Shown here: positions 28,415-35,668 of the stretch, one piece after another
Layout of the letters: every line of letters begins with the position of its first letter
How positions within the stretch are numbered: position 1 is the first letter of the stretch
Assembly (NCBI GenBank): GCA_002070215.1
Contig: MWCV01000024.1
Coordinates: 1 to 35,755 of the forward strand
Origin: Chloroflexi bacterium ADurb.Bin180
GTDB taxonomy: Bacteria > Chloroflexota > Anaerolineae > UBA2200
Direction: 5' to 3'
DNA length: 35,755 bases
Position numbers and translations under genes: made by a program
The notes under the pieces: generated by a model
What the model was told of the DNA's origin: nothing
Database searches by the model: none
What the model saw: the letters and a program-made list of their open reading frames with translations, nothing else

Positions 28415-28511
28415 TCGCTCGTTCGTCGGGCGCAACCGCGCCCTGTTGGTGGTGTTCTTCAAGAGACGCGGGTCTCTGAACTCATTCCCATTGTCGGGGC
28501 AGGGAGGCAGG

Positions 28512-29441
28512 TTGGCCAGGTACAAGATCATCGTCAACCCAACGTGCGGGAGAGGGAACGGCGAACGAAGCATTCCGGCGATTGAGGAGGCGCTGCGGCG
28601 CCGCGGGGTCGACTTTGACCTCGTGCGGACGGAGCGCCCCTGGCACGCCGCAGAGCTGGCCAGACAGGCCGCTCATGATGGTTTTGACGTAGTAGTGTCC
28701 GGCGGCGGCGACGGCACGGCCAATGAGGTAGTGAATGGCCTGATGCTGGCCAAGCAGGACGGCAAAGCGGCGGCGATGGGCATCCTGAGCATCGGTCGAG
28801 GCAACGACTATGCCTTTGGGATGATGGTACCCATGGGCGTCGAAGCCGGATGCCAGGCGCTGGCCGAAGGTAAGCGACGCTGGGTGGATGTGGGCCAGGT
28901 AGTGGGCGGCGACTACCCGCAGGGGCGGTACTTTGGCAACGGCGTGGGCATCGGTTTTGATACGGTGGTCGGATTCGAGGCGCTCAAGCTCAAATGGCTG
29001 ACGGGCTTTCCATCCTACATCGTGGCCGCACTCAAAACGGTATTCCTCTACTTTCGTGCGCCCTTGCTGCGCATCGAGCACGATGGCGGCACTGTCGAGC
29101 GGGCCTGTTTGATGGTTTCGATAATGAACGGTCGGCGGCTGGGCGGAGGCTTCATGATGGCGCCGGAAGGTCGCCCTGACGATGGCATGGCCGATGCGTG
29201 TGTGGCGCGACAGGTCAGCCGGGCCAGGGTGTTCACGCTCGTACCGCACTTTATGAAGGGTACACAGGCGACCCAGCCCGAGGTGGAGATGATCCACTCC
29301 CGGCGATTTGACATAGTCGCACTGGAGGGCACCCTGCCGGTGCATGCCGATGGCGAGACGATATGCACCGCCGGCCAGCGGATAACGGTAGAGATCCTGC
29401 CGCGGCAGGTCGAGTTCATCTTCTGTGGCCCGGAGGCGTAG
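28512..29441 (+). CDS. Diacylglycerol-kinase-family lipid kinase
   Basis: A 309-aa protein of the DgkB/YegS/sphingosine-kinase family, which phosphorylates diacylglycerol or related lipids at the membrane face using ATP. The start IIVNPTCGRGNG (6-17), the nucleotide-binding GGGDGT (64-69), GRGNDYA and the C-terminal PVHADGE stretch are diagnostic. The frame is open to 28446. I use TTG 28512, because GGGAGG lies five bases before it and the family normally begins with this strand. It is three bases from the acyltransferase gene; the two would make phosphatidic acid from different precursors and likely share a transcript. Confidence 0.92.
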   Translation: MARYKIIVNPTCGRGNGERSIPAIEEALRRRGVDFDLVRTERPWHAAELARQAAHDGFDVVVSGGGDGTANEVVNGLMLAKQDGKAAAMGILSIGRGNDYAFGMMVPMGVEAGCQALAEGKRRWVDVGQVVGGDYPQGRYFGNGVGIGFDTVVGFEALKLKWLTGFPSYIVAALKTVFLYFRAPLLRIEHDGGTVERACLMVSIMNGRRLGGGFMMAPEGRPDDGMADACVARQVSRARVFTLVPHFMKGTQATQPEVEMIHSRRFDIVALEGTLPVHADGETICTAGQRITVEILPRQVEFIFCGPEA

Positions 29442-29444
29442 GGT

Positions 29445-30158
29445 ATGGCTCTGACCGAGCGGGTGGTAACCTCCGGAATCAAGGTCGTGGCGCGGACGAT
29501 TCTGCGCATCGACGGCGCCGAGCTGGAACGAGTTCCACAGCACGGGCCGCTCATCCTGGTGCCCAACCACATCAACTTTCTGGACGCGCCGGTACTGTAC
29601 ACCCACCTCCTGCCCCGGCGCATTACGGCGCTGGCCAAGCAGGAAACCTGGGACAATCCGGCCCTGCGGTTTCTGTTTGACATGGGGGAAGCGATCCCAC
29701 TGCGGCGAGGTCAGGCGGACCTGGCAGCTTTGAAGCGCGGGCTCAAGGTGCTGGAAGAGGGACGCATTCTGGCCATCGCTCCGGAGGGGCACAGGAGCAG
29801 CACTGGTCTGCTCCAGCAGGGCCACCCGGGAGTGGTGTTTATGGCAATGCACAGCGGTGCGCCGCTGCTGCCGGTGGTTTGCTACGGGGCGGAAAAGTTC
29901 CGCTCAAACATCGTGCGCCTGCGCAGAACCGACTTTCACGTCGTGGTCGGCCGACAGTTCTACATTGACACGCACGGCGAGACGGTGATGGGCGCCAAGA
30001 GGCAGCAGATAGCGGATGAGATTATGTACCAGTTGGCGGCCCTGCTGCCGCCAGAGTACCGGGGGCACTACCGCGACCTCAGCCAGGCCACCGAACAGTA
30101 CCTGCGCTTTCAGCCGCCTGCCTACAGCAACCTGCAGCGAATCGGCATCGTCGACTGA
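29445..30158 (+). CDS. plsC: 1-acyl-sn-glycerol-3-phosphate acyltransferase
   Basis: A 237-aa PlsC-family acyltransferase that transfers an acyl chain to lysophosphatidic acid. The HX4D motif is NHINFLD (41-47, H42 and D47), and the substrate motif APEGHRS is at 112-118. PLRRG (86-90) is another family block. The length is typical. No ribosome binding site precedes the ATG beyond the end of the lipid kinase gene three bases upstream, which points to translational coupling. It ends 51 bases before the convergent end of the XPB-associated operon; I see no terminator there. Confidence 0.93.
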   Translation: MALTERVVTSGIKVVARTILRIDGAELERVPQHGPLILVPNHINFLDAPVLYTHLLPRRITALAKQETWDNPALRFLFDMGEAIPLRRGQADLAALKRGLKVLEEGRILAIAPEGHRSSTGLLQQGHPGVVFMAMHSGAPLLPVVCYGAEKFRSNIVRLRRTDFHVVVGRQFYIDTHGETVMGAKRQQIADEIMYQLAALLPPEYRGHYRDLSQATEQYLRFQPPAYSNLQRIGIVD

Positions 30159-30209: not shown

Positions 30210-32006
30210 TCAGCCTGTTGCCTGCCCTGGCAGCGACAGGTTGATTCCGCGCTCCTCCAGGCAACGTCGCAGGCCATCCATCTCCTGCGTCTTGACCAGC
30301 AGCAGTCGGCCCGTGGTGTCGCCGTCGAATCTGGCCAGCCGGGCGGCTATCTCAGGGTCAGCCAACAGCTCATCCGCCGTGGCTCGATCCTTCACCTCGA
30401 GCAGCACCACCTGAGAGAGCACCGCCGAGCCGTAATAGCGGCCCCACGCCTTGATCTTGAGCACCAGCTCCGGCGGCAGCGGCCCGCAGTGGATTGCCCC
30501 CAGTCGCTCAAGGTACGCGGCGACCGTCAGTCCTCGCTCGAGAGAGCGCTCGACCGATGAACGGGTGACAACGTACCGTCCATCCACCTCATCAGCCAGT
30601 TCTGCCAGCCGCTCTGTCAGCAGCAAGTCCGGCCCCTCGTGTGCCAGGCTCAGCGTGCCATCCGGCGTTGCCGCAACCTTCGCACGGTCGGGATCAAGTC
30701 CCCTGGTTACCGCGGGCAACTGGCCCCGTTCTAACAACAGCTCGCGCAGCGTAGCGGTGTTCCCTCGCTTGAGGAGAATCATGCCAGGCCCGAGCCGGCG
30801 CTCAAAGACGGGCTTGAGCGCGGGATCTTGCCACAGCGAGTCGGCGAGAGCGGCCGAGTCGGTGTGGCACAGAGCCACGGAGGGTCGAATCACGATGCGC
30901 TCGGACTGCTCGCCCCACTCACGGAGGGTCCTGAGCACGTTTTGCGGCAGGGGCTTCCCGGCCTGACGCTGCAAAAAGTCGATTATCCCGCGCGCGGATA
31001 GACCCCGCTGCTGGGCAGCATAAAAGGTCTGGCGAGACAGTTTGAACTCGAAGGATCCCCGGTCAGCGCGCACGCGGTCCGCAAAGAGCTCGATGCGCGC
31101 CAGGGTTGTCTCGGGCACGCCGCCGAGGGCCAGCAGTTGAAAGTTGGGCTGGACCACGAGCCGGCCATCGGCCACCGCCGCCGGGTTGGAGGAGGGGAGC
31201 GGCTCATCGAGCCGCATGGCGCGGTCAGCATCCTCGGTCAACCTGAACGCCAGGAGCCGACCCCCATCAAGACAGACATCCACCAGCCCGAGCCAGTGCA
31301 GGGGGCCGCTGAGCACACCGCCCACGAACGCAGCCTCGACCTCGGCCACCCAGCGCGCCTGCTGGGTGAGATAATTGGCGTCTTTGAAGTAGGGGATGCC
31401 AGGGTACTTGTCCTCTTTCTGAAAGATCAAGCGCGGCGCCAGCACGGACACCCGCTCCAGAAAGCGCTCGGCGGAAAGCCAGGTGCCGCTCTGCAGTTGG
31501 CACAGGTGGCCGAGCAAGAGCCGCCTGGCCTGGGCCAGGTCCAGGTCGAACGTGGCCATGCCGAGGGTGCTCAGTTCGCTCCACTCAGGCAGGCGCAGCC
31601 ATGCCTCAAGGCAGGTACGGGTGCGACTGAGGGCCGAGCGGCTCCAGAAGGCGGGCGGGGTCAGGTACCCGCCAGCGGCCCGCAGGTGATGGTTGGCACG
31701 CACGCACAGGCCCAGGGCCTGCAGCATCAGACGCGTAAAGTGCAGTCGGGGCGTCTCGTGCTGTGCTCCTTCTCCCAGGGCGGGCTCTGGCGAGATGAGT
31801 TGATCGTTGAGCAAACGGAGCGCGCGCTTTTGCACCTGGCCGGCCGCGTTGAGCGGCAATGGTTTGAACCTGGTGCAGCTCCAGTAGACAAAGAGCTCTC
31901 GTTGCGCCAGGGCTATCGTGGTTTCGATGGCGTCTGAAGGCAATGCGGTGGTGCCCCATTCGATAGGGGGCAGTTGGCTGGCTGGCGGGGACGAGGATGA
32001 GGCCAT
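30210..32006 (-). CDS. XPB-associated Helicase_C_3-like protein A
   Basis: A 598-aa protein without helicase motifs. Residues about 282-370 (LVVQPNFQLLALGG onward) resemble the Helicase_C_3 (XPB/Ssl2-like) domain and align with the N-terminus of the neighbouring XPB: both have a VVQ/IVQ strand, a FxxF/R-L-S-x-x-x segment, a KPLP/YPLP turn and a WGE/YGR strand. A PLHWLG motif (about 235-240) is shared with protein B. The C-terminus holds two similar units (about 385-430 and 535-590) of the form D-P-x-x-x-F/L-R followed by I/L-L-L-V/K and L-x-E-R-G. I use ATG 32006, 7 bases after the gene B stop; TTG 32021 overlaps it. Function unknown; probably a helicase partner. Confidence 0.75.
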   Translation of the reverse strand: MASSSSPPASQLPPIEWGTTALPSDAIETTIALAQRELFVYWSCTRFKPLPLNAAGQVQKRALRLLNDQLISPEPALGEGAQHETPRLHFTRLMLQALGLCVRANHHLRAAGGYLTPPAFWSRSALSRTRTCLEAWLRLPEWSELSTLGMATFDLDLAQARRLLLGHLCQLQSGTWLSAERFLERVSVLAPRLIFQKEDKYPGIPYFKDANYLTQQARWVAEVEAAFVGGVLSGPLHWLGLVDVCLDGGRLLAFRLTEDADRAMRLDEPLPSSNPAAVADGRLVVQPNFQLLALGGVPETTLARIELFADRVRADRGSFEFKLSRQTFYAAQQRGLSARGIIDFLQRQAGKPLPQNVLRTLREWGEQSERIVIRPSVALCHTDSAALADSLWQDPALKPVFERRLGPGMILLKRGNTATLRELLLERGQLPAVTRGLDPDRAKVAATPDGTLSLAHEGPDLLLTERLAELADEVDGRYVVTRSSVERSLERGLTVAAYLERLGAIHCGPLPPELVLKIKAWGRYYGSAVLSQVVLLEVKDRATADELLADPEIAARLARFDGDTTGRLLLVKTQEMDGLRRCLEERGINLSLPGQATG

Positions 32007-32013
32007 GGTGGCT

Positions 32014-33909
32014 CTAGTCAAGAACCCGGGGCATATAGCCGCGTTCGCTGAACTCTTTCACCAGCAGAGGAACATCTTCCTCTGCCACGAGAGCCAGACG
32101 CGGCGTGATGCGGGCCACAATGCGCTGCGACAGGGCCGTGCTGACCTGGAGTTCCGCCAGCAGCACGTCATCCTGCAGCTCGAGGAGGGCAAAGCCCTCG
32201 TAGAGCCTCACCCGACCGTAGCGCGACCACCAGTCATTGAGTGCCTCGGTCACGGCCGGAGGGGCTGGCGCCGAAAGACAGCGATTCCACTCGGCGAGCA
32301 GCTCGGCGGCCGAGTGACCGACCTCGAACTCGGCACAGGCCCGGCGCGGATCGAGTTGATACACGAAACGATCGGGGGCAGCCTCCTGCAGCTCGGCGAT
32401 CCTTCCGAGCAGAACGTGCACCGAGGCACAGACGCTGTGCGGGCGAACCAGAACTATGACCTCGGAGCCGCGCTGCTCAACGGTCAACGGCACGCCTCCA
32501 ACAGGCTCGCGGGGCGCGGGTCTGTCCCAGACCCAGTTGGCCAGGCCAGTGGAGCGATACGCCACCAGACGCTCTCCCTCCAGCAAGAGCTGCACCCAGC
32601 CCAGCCAGTGGAGAGGGCCTTGCAGCATAAACCGGAGTATCCTGCCCTCAACCTGGTCCCACGAAGGGGTTGAGTGCGGAGAGAAGCGCCCCGAGGAATC
32701 GCGGACCGCGACGCCCCAGGCAGTGACAGGAGCATCGAGCAGCGCATTCATCTGCGGCCACAGCCGTCTGATGGCCGCTTCGACCCGGTCCAGCGGAAGC
32801 CACCCCGTTTCTCCGGTGCAGGCCAGGGACCTGAGCAGCAAATGGCGCATCCGCACCAGCCGTGAGCGGAAATGCTGATACGAACAGGCATACTGCGCGT
32901 TGTGCCACAGAACAAGGCCAGTCGACCGACGCAGCACGCTGTCCAGCTCGCTCCAGTTGGCGAGCGACTGATAGGCGTGCGCCAGGCTCCGGGCCCGGGC
33001 CTGCACCGTCTGCGCACTGAATTGCTCCCAGGCATGTTTCCTGGCGACGAGGTGGTCCGCCGTCAGCTCCACGAGGCCCAGCTCCACGAGCAGGCGACAG
33101 AACAGGTCGGCCTCCTCCGCCTCGCCTGATATCGCTGTAGCGAGCTCCTGCAGGGCCGGCTCGGCCAGCAGCATTGCCGCGGGGAGAGCCGTCAACAACT
33201 GCCGGGAGATATCGAGCTTGCGACCCCGACGCAGCCGTGCCAGTTCTGCCTGCTCGATTGGCCAACCCTGCAAGCCGGCCGCCAGTCGCCGTTCGACCGG
33301 CGCAGATCCAGGAGGCGCTCGCCGGGGCCTGACTGTAGCAATGTGCTGCCACACGGTAACCAACTGCGACAGGGCATCGGCCGTGTCGCGACTGCGGATG
33401 TCGGGTGAAGGGGGAATAGGCTCGGCCTGGCACCACCCGGGCAGGGGCGGCACGAGCTGCTGGACTTCCCAGGGCAGCCAGTACTGCGGCATCTGGTGCA
33501 GCGAGTCGCGCCAGGCCAGCAGTAGACCGACTCGCGCCAGGTCAGACAGGAACCCGGCTGCCTCGACGGGCTTGACCTCTGGTTCAGATTCCGGGCGCAT
33601 GGAGCTCATCGCCAGAGCCATTCCGGAAGGAGTCACGCCGCAACCGTCCTCGGCCACAAAAGCGGCACGCAGGGCCTCGCGGAGAAGCGGAGGCAGAGAG
33701 ACGACAATGCGGGCAGTGCCAGTATGGTCAGCCAGCAGCTCTACCAGCCCCGAAACGAGCTGCGACCGATCAGAGCCTGGCAGCGTGCAACCTCTCGCCC
33801 GGGCGAGGTCGCGGAGTTCTTGCTCAGGCAATTGGCTCAGGATTGTGGCCAGGCCGGAACGGGCGTCGTCCAGGCAATCAGTGGACAAGCTGAGGGACCT
33901 CGTCTTCAT
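32014..33909 (-). CDS. XPB-associated Helicase_C_3-like protein B
   Basis: A 631-aa protein. Residues about 28-60 (ELRDLARARGC to LVSGLVELL) look like a SAP-type helix-extended-loop-helix, a DNA-binding fold. The middle is predicted helical with no motif I know. GPLHWLGW (431-438) matches protein A, and the C-terminal 150 residues match the XPB N-terminus and protein A: VLVRPHS at about 487-493, then DWWSRYGRVRLYEG (569-582) beside DYVARYGRVKL in XPB, then TPRLALVAEEDV and ERGYMP. The ATG at 33909 overlaps the helicase gene by 32 bases; a TTG at 33888 has a better ribosome binding site (GAGG). No catalytic motif was seen. Confidence 0.75.
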   Translation of the reverse strand: MKTRSLSLSTDCLDDARSGLATILSQLPEQELRDLARARGCTLPGSDRSQLVSGLVELLADHTGTARIVVSLPPLLREALRAAFVAEDGCGVTPSGMALAMSSMRPESEPEVKPVEAAGFLSDLARVGLLLAWRDSLHQMPQYWLPWEVQQLVPPLPGWCQAEPIPPSPDIRSRDTADALSQLVTVWQHIATVRPRRAPPGSAPVERRLAAGLQGWPIEQAELARLRRGRKLDISRQLLTALPAAMLLAEPALQELATAISGEAEEADLFCRLLVELGLVELTADHLVARKHAWEQFSAQTVQARARSLAHAYQSLANWSELDSVLRRSTGLVLWHNAQYACSYQHFRSRLVRMRHLLLRSLACTGETGWLPLDRVEAAIRRLWPQMNALLDAPVTAWGVAVRDSSGRFSPHSTPSWDQVEGRILRFMLQGPLHWLGWVQLLLEGERLVAYRSTGLANWVWDRPAPREPVGGVPLTVEQRGSEVIVLVRPHSVCASVHVLLGRIAELQEAAPDRFVYQLDPRRACAEFEVGHSAAELLAEWNRCLSAPAPPAVTEALNDWWSRYGRVRLYEGFALLELQDDVLLAELQVSTALSQRIVARITPRLALVAEEDVPLLVKEFSERGYMPRVLD

Positions 33910-35590
33910 AGAGGATGTCGTAGTGGTAGCCCTGCTCGGTCAGGAATAGCTGGCGCTTGGCGGCGCAATCCTGGTCGCGCGTGTCTCTGGTGACCAGGGA
34001 GTAGAAGTGGGCCAGGGTACCGCTGCGTTTGGGACGCAGGATCCGGCCGAGGCGCTGGGCTTCTTCCTGGCGCGAACCGAAGGTGCCCGAAATCTGAATG
34101 GCCACGTTCGCGTCGGGGAGGTCAATGGCAAAGTTGCCGACCTTGGAGACAATCAACCGTCGAATTGCGCCGGAACGGAACCGCTCGTAGAGCTCCTCAC
34201 GCTCTCGCACGGGGGTCTTGCCGGTGATGATGGGCAGCCCATAGCGCTCGGCTACTTGCAGCAGCTGGGTCCGATAGACGCCAATGATCAGGGTACTATC
34301 ATCAGCGTGCAGCGACAGCAGTTGTTCCAGAACCGCCAGCTTGCGCGGGTTCTCGGCAGCCACGCGATAGCGGTCGCGGTCGTCAGCGATGGCATAGTCC
34401 AGACGCAGCTCCTCGTCCAGGGCAACGCGCACCTCGTGACACTCGGCGGTGGCGATCCAGCCCTGGTGTTCGAGGTCCTTCCAAGGGGCGTCGTACCTCT
34501 TCGGACCAATCAACGAAAAGACATCGGTCTCCCGGCCGTCCTCACGGACCAGCGTAGCGGTCAGGCCCAGACGTCGGCGGGCCTGAATCTCAGCCGTGAC
34601 GCGAAAGACCGGTGCAGGGAGGAGGTGCACTTCGTCGTAGATGATGAGGCCCCAATCCTGCTGGTTGAACAGGGCAAAGTGCGGGTACTCGGCGTCCTCC
34701 GGCGCGGCATCGCCGTTTCGCGGCGCGTGATAGGTCATCATCTGATAAGTGCTGATGGTCACGGGGCGCACCTGTTTGCAGTCGCCCGTATACTCGCCGA
34801 TGTCCGCCGCCTTCAGGTCGGTCTTGTCCAGCAGCTCTGCCGCCCACTGACGAGCGGCGACGGTGTTGGTGGTGAGGATCAGCGTGGCACACTGGGCCCT
34901 GGCCATCACGGCCAGGCCAACGACCGTCTTGCCCGCACCGCAGGGGAGAACCACGACGCCGCTTCCCCCGCGCGATGTGCCGTTGGCGAAGAAGGCGGCC
35001 GCGGCGTCGGCTTGATACGCGCGCAGGGTGAGCGGCTGGCCGGACAGCGTAACCTGGCGAAGAGAGTGAGGCAGCGGAGCACCCTGGACGTAGCCGGCCA
35101 GGTCCTCGGCCGGGTAACCGATGGTCACGAGGGCCTGCTTCACGTGCCCGCGCCTCAGGGGGTCGATACGCAGCTTGAGCGGAGAGATGGCCTCGAGCAC
35201 AAACGGCAGCAGGCGCTTTTGCCGCGACAGCTCGGCCATCATGGCCAGGTCATCGGCCACCAGGAAGAGCTGGTCACCTTCGCGAATCAGCTTGACCCGG
35301 CCGTACCTGGCAACATAGTCACGAATGTCGCGGGTGATGTTTTCCGGCAGGGGGTACTTGCTGTACGCCCGCAGGCCGCTCACGATCGATTCCGCATCCA
35401 AACCCGAAGAGGCCGCATTCCACAAAGAGAGGGGGGTTATGCGGTAGGTGTGCACGTATTCGGGGCTCTTTTCCAACTCGGCAAAGCGGCAGAGCTGGTC
35501 GCGGGCAGCGGCGTAGAGAGGGTTGTCGACCTCGAGGAGCACTGTGCGGTCGCTCTGAACGATTATCGGGTTGCCAGATGAGTTACTCAC
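33878..35590 (-). CDS. XPB/Ssl2-type DNA repair helicase
   Basis: A 570-aa superfamily 2 helicase. Motifs: I PCGAGKT (216-222), II DEVH (319-322), III TATL (344-347), the XPB-specific RED (349-351), and VI QRLGRILR (512-519). The first 180 or so residues are the XPB N-terminal module (Helicase_C_3-like, IIVQSDRTVLLEV and VARYGRVKL) seen in many bacterial and archaeal XPBs. XPB unwinds or translocates on DNA in nucleotide excision repair and transcription in eukaryotes; the bacterial role is not settled. The start is GTG 35590, preceded only by a weak AGGT, about 43 bases from the predicted transcription start. It is the first of three overlapping or adjacent genes. Confidence 0.93.
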   Translation of the reverse strand: MSNSSGNPIIVQSDRTVLLEVDNPLYAAARDQLCRFAELEKSPEYVHTYRITPLSLWNAASSGLDAESIVSGLRAYSKYPLPENITRDIRDYVARYGRVKLIREGDQLFLVADDLAMMAELSRQKRLLPFVLEAISPLKLRIDPLRRGHVKQALVTIGYPAEDLAGYVQGAPLPHSLRQVTLSGQPLTLRAYQADAAAAFFANGTSRGGSGVVVLPCGAGKTVVGLAVMARAQCATLILTTNTVAARQWAAELLDKTDLKAADIGEYTGDCKQVRPVTISTYQMMTYHAPRNGDAAPEDAEYPHFALFNQQDWGLIIYDEVHLLPAPVFRVTAEIQARRRLGLTATLVREDGRETDVFSLIGPKRYDAPWKDLEHQGWIATAECHEVRVALDEELRLDYAIADDRDRYRVAAENPRKLAVLEQLLSLHADDSTLIIGVYRTQLLQVAERYGLPIITGKTPVREREELYERFRSGAIRRLIVSKVGNFAIDLPDANVAIQISGTFGSRQEEAQRLGRILRPKRSGTLAHFYSLVTRDTRDQDCAAKRQLFLTEQGYHYDILYEDEVPQLVH

Positions 35591-35639
35591 ACTGACCTAT
35601 CTGCCTCACGGAATCTAATTGCCGGGTAGGGGGCAGGGT

Positions 35640-35668
35640 ATTGTAACAAATCGATGCACTCGAGTCAA
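35640..35668 (-). promoter_or_regulatory. Promoter of the XPB operon
   Basis: On the minus strand TTGACT (35663-35668) and TACAAT (35640-35645) are 17 bases apart, one of the best promoters in the window. It predicts a leader of about 43 bases before the GTG at 35590. Confidence 0.8.

Follow-up and report, generated by a model that had tools for sequence, protein, structure and literature searches.

An XPB operon of a Chloroflexota bacterium encoding two proteins with a predicted p52-like architecture

XPB is brought into TFIIH by a pseudo-symmetric pairing of its N-terminal domain (NTD) with the clutch of p52, a structural homologue of that domain (PMC6422496); the ATPase of XPB is both activated and held in check by p52/p8 (PMC7708078). 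XPB in bacteria, the domain family PF13625 and, in eukaryotes, the pairing of XPB with p52 are already known. A 2025 review restricts p62, p52, p44, p34 and p8 to eukaryotes (PMC11855273). As no p52 homologue was known, work on the XPB of mycobacteria led to the conclusion that this helicase is probably active outside any TFIIH-like complex (PMC3353954). Here we describe a three-gene XPB operon in a Chloroflexota bacterium (Chloroflexi bacterium ADurb.Bin180). The DNA analysed, termed the window, is 35,755 nucleotides long and is one whole contig (MWCV01000024.1) of a 3.1 Mb genome. The operon probably encodes a prokaryotic equivalent of the XPB-p52 portion of TFIIH, with its two partner proteins, A and B, docking onto XPB through pairs of clutches and regulating its translocase. 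The homology of the partners to p52 is well supported; complex formation and function we infer. We place the partners in a variant form of the XPB-p52 module, without taking them for proven p52 orthologues: a clutch and winged helices are found in both, and binding to XPB is predicted. This assignment of bacterial partners to p52 contradicts both of the published statements (PMC3353954, PMC11855273).

The operon and its shared module

The genes and the parts of their products on which the comparison turns are as follows, all on the minus strand.

33878..35590, minus: XPB helicase gene, 570 aa, GTG start; NF045503 845 bits; PF16203, PF04851, PF00271
32014..33909, minus: protein B gene, 631 aa; p52-like predicted fold
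30210..32021, minus: protein A gene, 603 aa from TTG; p52-like predicted scaffold
35075..35569, minus: XPB N-terminal module, residues 8-172; clutch-type NTD and alpha/beta unit; PF13625 E 3.7e-37
32017..32493, minus: B module, residues 473-631; PF13625 E 7.6e-8; hhalign to XPB module E 2e-18 to 2e-16
30699..31172, minus: A module 1, residues 284-441; p52-type clutch and C-terminal unit; hhalign to p52 E 1.5e-9
30213..30683, minus: A module 2, residues 447-603; second PF13625 copy; hhalign to A module 1 E 5.6e-20
31182..31934, minus: A winged-helix region, residues 30-280; model match to the N-terminal half of p52
31287..31304, minus: PLHWLG motif in A, residues 240-245; p52 equivalent LREFGLV
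32599..32616, minus: PLHWLG motif in B, residues 432-437; from homologue alignment; model helix 421-435, then strands

An earlier note on this DNA had described a minus-strand XPB system of three genes whose partner proteins lack helicase motifs, and this description holds. The open reading frames were confirmed. The helicase is an XPB/ERCC3 equivalog (NF045503, 845 bits versus a cut-off of 610) with two RecA domains (PF04851, PF16203), its closest named relatives being from Anaerolineae. No helicase domain was found in A or B by profile search, the notable Pfam match being PF13625, plus a faint match to Tfb2 in A.

The segment that the note saw as common to all three proteins is indeed homologous, but the GRV..L patch by which it was recognized is too short, the module being ∼150 residues long, and a second copy in A was missed. 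PF13625 matches XPB at 9-135, B at 495-600 and A at both 288-409 and about 480-560, making four copies in the trio, two of them in A. Using profiles built from homologues, the four modules align pairwise with hhalign E-values of 1e-15 to 1e-24 over 125-149 columns, while nothing aligned between the modules and the controls (XPB RecA2 and the winged-helix regions). Thus the profile-profile comparison that the note had proposed aligns the segments, and the failure to align that it had named as grounds for abandoning the idea was not seen. The module of the operon XPB corresponds to the eukaryotic XPB NTD (hhalign E 2.6e-18). The hexapeptide PLHWLG, correctly noted as common to A and B, is a separate feature: it closes the final winged helix, immediately ahead of the module, and LREFGLV stands at this place in p52.

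Kinship of the partner proteins with p52

AlphaFold2 models of A and B (pLDDT 81 and 83, respectively) were compared with the PDB by Foldseek, chain identities being checked where listed. The top 17 matches to A were p52/Tfb2 chains, with E-values down to 1.5e-9 and a first non-TFIIH match at 0.011; for B the top 21 were p52/Tfb2 chains, the best at 1.3e-9 and the first non-TFIIH match at 0.17. In structural alignment, residues 22-435 of the A model cover p52 131-461. Its N-terminal half (16-271) superimposes on p52 120-318 (6tru_D) with Z 11.0 and 3.5 Å over 159 residues, compared with ∼8 for the best unrelated winged-helix proteins, and residues 284-374 fit the XPB NTD (Z 14.5, 1.8 Å). The B model is similar, with 12-462 matching p52 15-318 (Z 9.8, 3.8 Å) and 469-567 matching the human XPB NTD (Z 11.1); its best single-domain fits are to the Orc1 winged helix and the XPB NTD (Z about 11), and p52 is matched across most of the chain with Z about 10. 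The p52/Tfb2 arrangement of a winged-helix array preceding a clutch is therefore found in both proteins by predicted structure, and the homology of the clutch to the XPB NTD is found in A by structure and by hhalign. The C-terminal unit, set against the p8-binding domain that follows the clutch in p52, is modelled as beta-alpha-beta-beta-alpha and is aligned up to p52 458-461, the unit alone giving no sequence match. A related proposal, that the second half of the module is a p8/TTD-A domain, was rejected, as hhalign did not support it and the hints came only from secondary structure and multi-domain structural alignment.

Sequence profiles point in the same direction. The p52 profile combined the human segment, confirmed letter for letter against PDB chains, with the Chaetomium and yeast segments from printed alignments. 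Positions 24-219 of p52 align with A 234-428 at E 5.8e-9 over 181 columns, running from the last winged helix to the C-terminal domain. Elsewhere, p52 matches a third, single-module family (C-type) at 2.7e-11, Bacillota partners at 6.3e-10 and prokaryotic XPB at 4.5e-5; the best match of eukaryotic XPB is prokaryotic XPB, at the 2.6e-18 given above. Taken alone, A module 1 prefers p52 (1.5e-9) to eukaryotic XPB (3.6e-7) and keeps the conserved N, F and W of p52. The Trp at the position of human p52 W394 is present in 3/3 p52 sequences, all 30 A modules, 20 of 21 C-type and 13 of 17 B modules, and most modules of other partners, compared with 3 of ∼89 prokaryotic XPB modules. The Pfam Tfb2 family (PF03849) matches 10 of 16 A proteins, one of them with 38.5 bits against a curated cut-off of 34.5, and several of these matches begin about 30-45 residues before PF13625; the match of the window A is weak (13 bits, E 0.047). 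At E 1e-3 only 2/121 Chloroflexota genomes give a Tfb2 match, both through A proteins, and such poor detection from single sequences may be why the p52 link was overlooked.

It could be argued that A and B are DNA-binding winged-helix proteins of unrelated origin whose sole link to XPB is a small generic domain (PF13625), the match to p52 being a by-product of that domain together with common winged helices. Winged helices are indeed common, PF13625 by itself accounts for part of the structural score, and the winged-helix part alone gives no hhalign sequence match to p52. However, the domains are matched in the same order and the N-terminal half reaches Z 11 without the clutch. In addition, the sequence of A module 1 prefers p52 to XPB and has the diagnostic Trp, p52 falls among the partners in trees, and among 121 genomes the Pfam Tfb2 matches come from A proteins only. 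We consider this explanation unlikely.

Trees of the clutch, built on 93 columns, bear on the origin of the modules. XPB modules are separated from all partner modules by FastTree (90/90, support 0.877) and by IQ-TREE (27/27, UFBoot 100); eukaryotic and prokaryotic XPB form one group without any partner, and p52 lies among the partners. A grouping of p52 with three planctomycete partners (UFBoot 91) was not used, since with 93 columns it may reflect long-branch attraction. Because the XPB modules across phyla, archaea and eukaryotes exclude every partner module, the split predates these phyla, and p52-type and XPB-type modules form lineages that are separate and ancient. The partners are then not recent copies of the XPB N-terminus. 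The note had proposed that the complex grew by duplication of one module. Read in this way, the partners would be recent in-lineage duplicates of the XPB module. All four modules are clearly homologous and that of B is rather XPB-like, but no partner falls within the XPB group, which takes in archaea, eukaryotes and many phyla, and in the tree the partner modules of Chloroflexota are separate from the XPB of the same phylum, making recent duplication very improbable. What stands of the proposal is the second copy in A, which looks like a duplication and may have arisen inside A.

Gene order and co-occurrence with XPB

For the surveys, XPB was defined as a PF13625 match of ∼79 bits or more in a frame of ∼530-720 aa and a partner as any other PF13625 frame; one divergent Chloroflexota XPB (G133), recognized through the XPB profile, was added. 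Counts were made by hand from tables over species that are not independent and are therefore approximate. The order XPB-B-A is found in this operon and at loci L035, L036, L037, L038, L075, L076, L079 and L080. In other Chloroflexota the B-A pair lies apart from XPB, yet in the same genome, and it was seen only in genomes with XPB. The gene-order survey suggested in the earlier note thus gave no sign, for A and B, of the occurrence independent of XPB that would have spoken against a shared system. Unlike the B-A pair, the C-type family (e.g. L068, L069, L070), the one that lies nearest to p52 by profile, also occurs in Chloroflexota that lack XPB.

At 80 XPB loci from many phyla a partner was nearby in 40, on the same strand in 39 and within 150 nt in 26 as counted. 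It lies downstream of XPB in most phyla and upstream in Actinobacteria. The scanned neighbours of partnerless XPB genes were unrelated enzymes or unassigned; among 24 XPB genomes chosen mostly for having no adjacent partner, ∼20 encode one elsewhere. Co-occurrence of a partner with XPB is strong in four phyla, with frequencies in genomes with versus without XPB of 9/9 versus 0/50 in Asgard archaea, 29/31 versus 1/28 in Planctomycetota, 25/25 versus 28/126 in Chloroflexota and 49/67 versus 2/13 in Spirochaetota. In the 59 Asgard genomes, XPB and a PF13625 partner were always jointly present or jointly absent. Profile comparison, co-occurrence and gene order therefore speak for the multi-subunit XPB system proposed in the note, as they do for the duplicated module, though we infer the complex itself.

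Several observations weigh against an XPB-p52 counterpart. That XPB, A and B bind one another is a prediction, and 16-17 sequences underlie the models of the two partners. Superposition on p52 gives low global TM-scores (0.2-0.3), with rmsd values of 8-20 Å over several domains; the global scores are low because the domain arrangement differs from that of p52, so that the match holds domain by domain. By sequence, the B module is nearer to eukaryotic XPB (9e-11) than to p52 (9e-8), thorarchaeal and cyanobacterial partners match the p52 profile weakly or not at all, and the C-terminal unit alone gave no hhalign match to the p52 C-terminal domain or to p8. Roughly one XPB locus in two lacks an adjacent partner, some XPB genomes showed no PF13625 partner (e.g. 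18/67 Spirochaetota), and the C-type homologues in 28 Chloroflexota genomes without XPB are a real exception.

A role of the trio in defence, of anti-phage or phosphorothioation type and with a borrowed XPB-like helicase, is barely credible: XPB weakly matches PADLOC helicases (PbeA) and the SWIM region of a long B homologue matches the PDC-S62 and DpdE models, but the window A and B match no PADLOC defence model, XPB is an NF045503 equivalog well over the cut-off, and different phyla as well as Asgard archaea keep the pairing, as for a housekeeping function.

Two further features of the operon are given here.

33730..33870, minus: SAP-like N-terminal region of B, residues 14-60; column match in the B alignment, with SAP/Rho_N and SWIM Pfam matches in other B members
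35640..35668, minus: possible promoter, TTGACT-17-TACAAT, second hexamer preceded by TG; consensus match only

Many B homologues have an N-terminal SWIM zinc finger (CxC...CxH), which is absent from the window B and from L035, L036, L037 and L080. The genes had been said to overlap or nearly touch under one strong promoter. The XPB and B genes share 32 nt; between B and A the overlap is 8 nt if A starts at TTG, and there is none if it starts at an alternative ATG five codons inside that frame. The promoter fares less well, being a consensus match of 10/12: a scan for TG-extended -35/-10 elements found three sites compared with 0.5 expected, including this one at 35668-35640, which we therefore list as a possible promoter on sequence grounds, not as evidence of function. 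Convergent on the operon, putative diacylglycerol-kinase-like and PlsC-like acyltransferase genes read from the sequence (window 28446-30158) stop ∼50 bases from A.

The same genome holds a further C-type PF13625 protein (519 aa; L054:2499-4058, contig C25:12797-13063), whose match crosses one TGA, so that the protein ends early or is shortened relative to its relatives. At L086, L088, L091 and G167 (Thorarchaeota), an XPB with NTD has a PF13625 partner 1.7-3.6 kb downstream. A Nitrososphaerales locus (L132:634-7061) has XPB between an upstream PF13625 partner and, downstream, another helicase of SF2 that carries a SWIM finger at its C terminus. Putative recO-like genes, read from sequence, directly follow the B-A pair in one genome (L043:8292-9122) and a solo C-type gene in another (L070:5451-6212), hinting at a possible link to recombination repair.

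Proposed mechanism and comparison with known systems

In the proposed XPB-p52 counterpart, XPB would be an ATP-driven double-strand DNA translocase, and A and B would each run from winged helices through a clutch homologous to the XPB NTD to a small alpha/beta C-terminal unit. Since these are the same parts as in TFIIH, the best guess is that the XPB NTD pairs beta-sheet to beta-sheet with the first clutch of A, as XPB does with p52. A module 2 and the B module leave one more pair, so A module 2 may be a further dock, most likely for B, with A bridging XPB and B. The winged helices, together with the SAP-like region of B (SWIM in relatives), would contact DNA or another protein. Assembly would both activate and limit the XPB ATPase, so that DNA is opened only at the site of recruitment, be it a lesion or a polymerase that has stalled. 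Neither p8 nor Bax1 would be needed, because each module carries its own C-terminal unit. Loss of mycobacterial ercc3 gives more killing by rifampin (PMC10534295), an effect that fits either a repair or a transcription output.

With less assurance, we lean slightly towards the view that p52 predates eukaryotes: a prokaryotic XPB-p52 engine, widespread in bacteria and Thorarchaeota, would have existed before TFIIH and served repair or transcription as a minimal form of it, and the eukaryotic complex would have been built round this inherited core. A bacterial p52 counterpart beside XPB would change the account of the origin of TFIIH and would show by what means XPB is recruited and controlled in bacteria. 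A neighbouring gene so far uncharacterised would become a specific, testable partner, and the clutch mechanism, defective in some xeroderma pigmentosum patients, could be studied in a system of two or three proteins. No literature linking bacterial proteins to p52 was found, in a search that left preprints and most subscription journals outside, so this absence is not proof. The note had called bacterial XPB partners of this kind poorly characterised; it did not see that A and B correspond to a known protein, the TFIIH subunit p52/Tfb2.

Compared with 'helicase-associated' PF13625 proteins such as the one encoded upstream of actinobacterial XPB, the operon has the same module next to XPB and its partners belong to the same broad family; Actinobacteria, however, usually have one partner upstream of XPB, where the operon has two downstream. 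Rv0862c, beside Rv0861c in M. tuberculosis, is an example of such an upstream PF13625 gene. The archaeal XPB-Bax1 helicase-nuclease is likewise a prokaryotic XPB with a dedicated partner. Bax1 (DUF790), however, is a nuclease, whereas A and B have no nuclease domain; Bax1 was considered as a partner here and dropped, PF05626 giving no match over the cut-off in this genome.

The closest likeness is to the XPB-p52-p8 submodule of TFIIH (human GTF2H4/p52, yeast Tfb2). This comparison covered XPB, p52 and p8 among the TFIIH subunits. With E-values up to 1 allowed, the genome gave no match to p8/Tfb5 (PF06331); as p8 is the partner of p52 and not part of it, this bears on the complex and not on p52 homology. 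The operon differs in having two p52-like proteins instead of one, in the second module of A, and in that the first winged helix of p52 seems unmatched in A. In both, XPB has a clutch-type NTD and its partner consists of winged helices, a homologous clutch and, for the operon proteins by prediction, a small alpha/beta domain, and in the operon the partner gene adjoins XPB, as expected of a complex.

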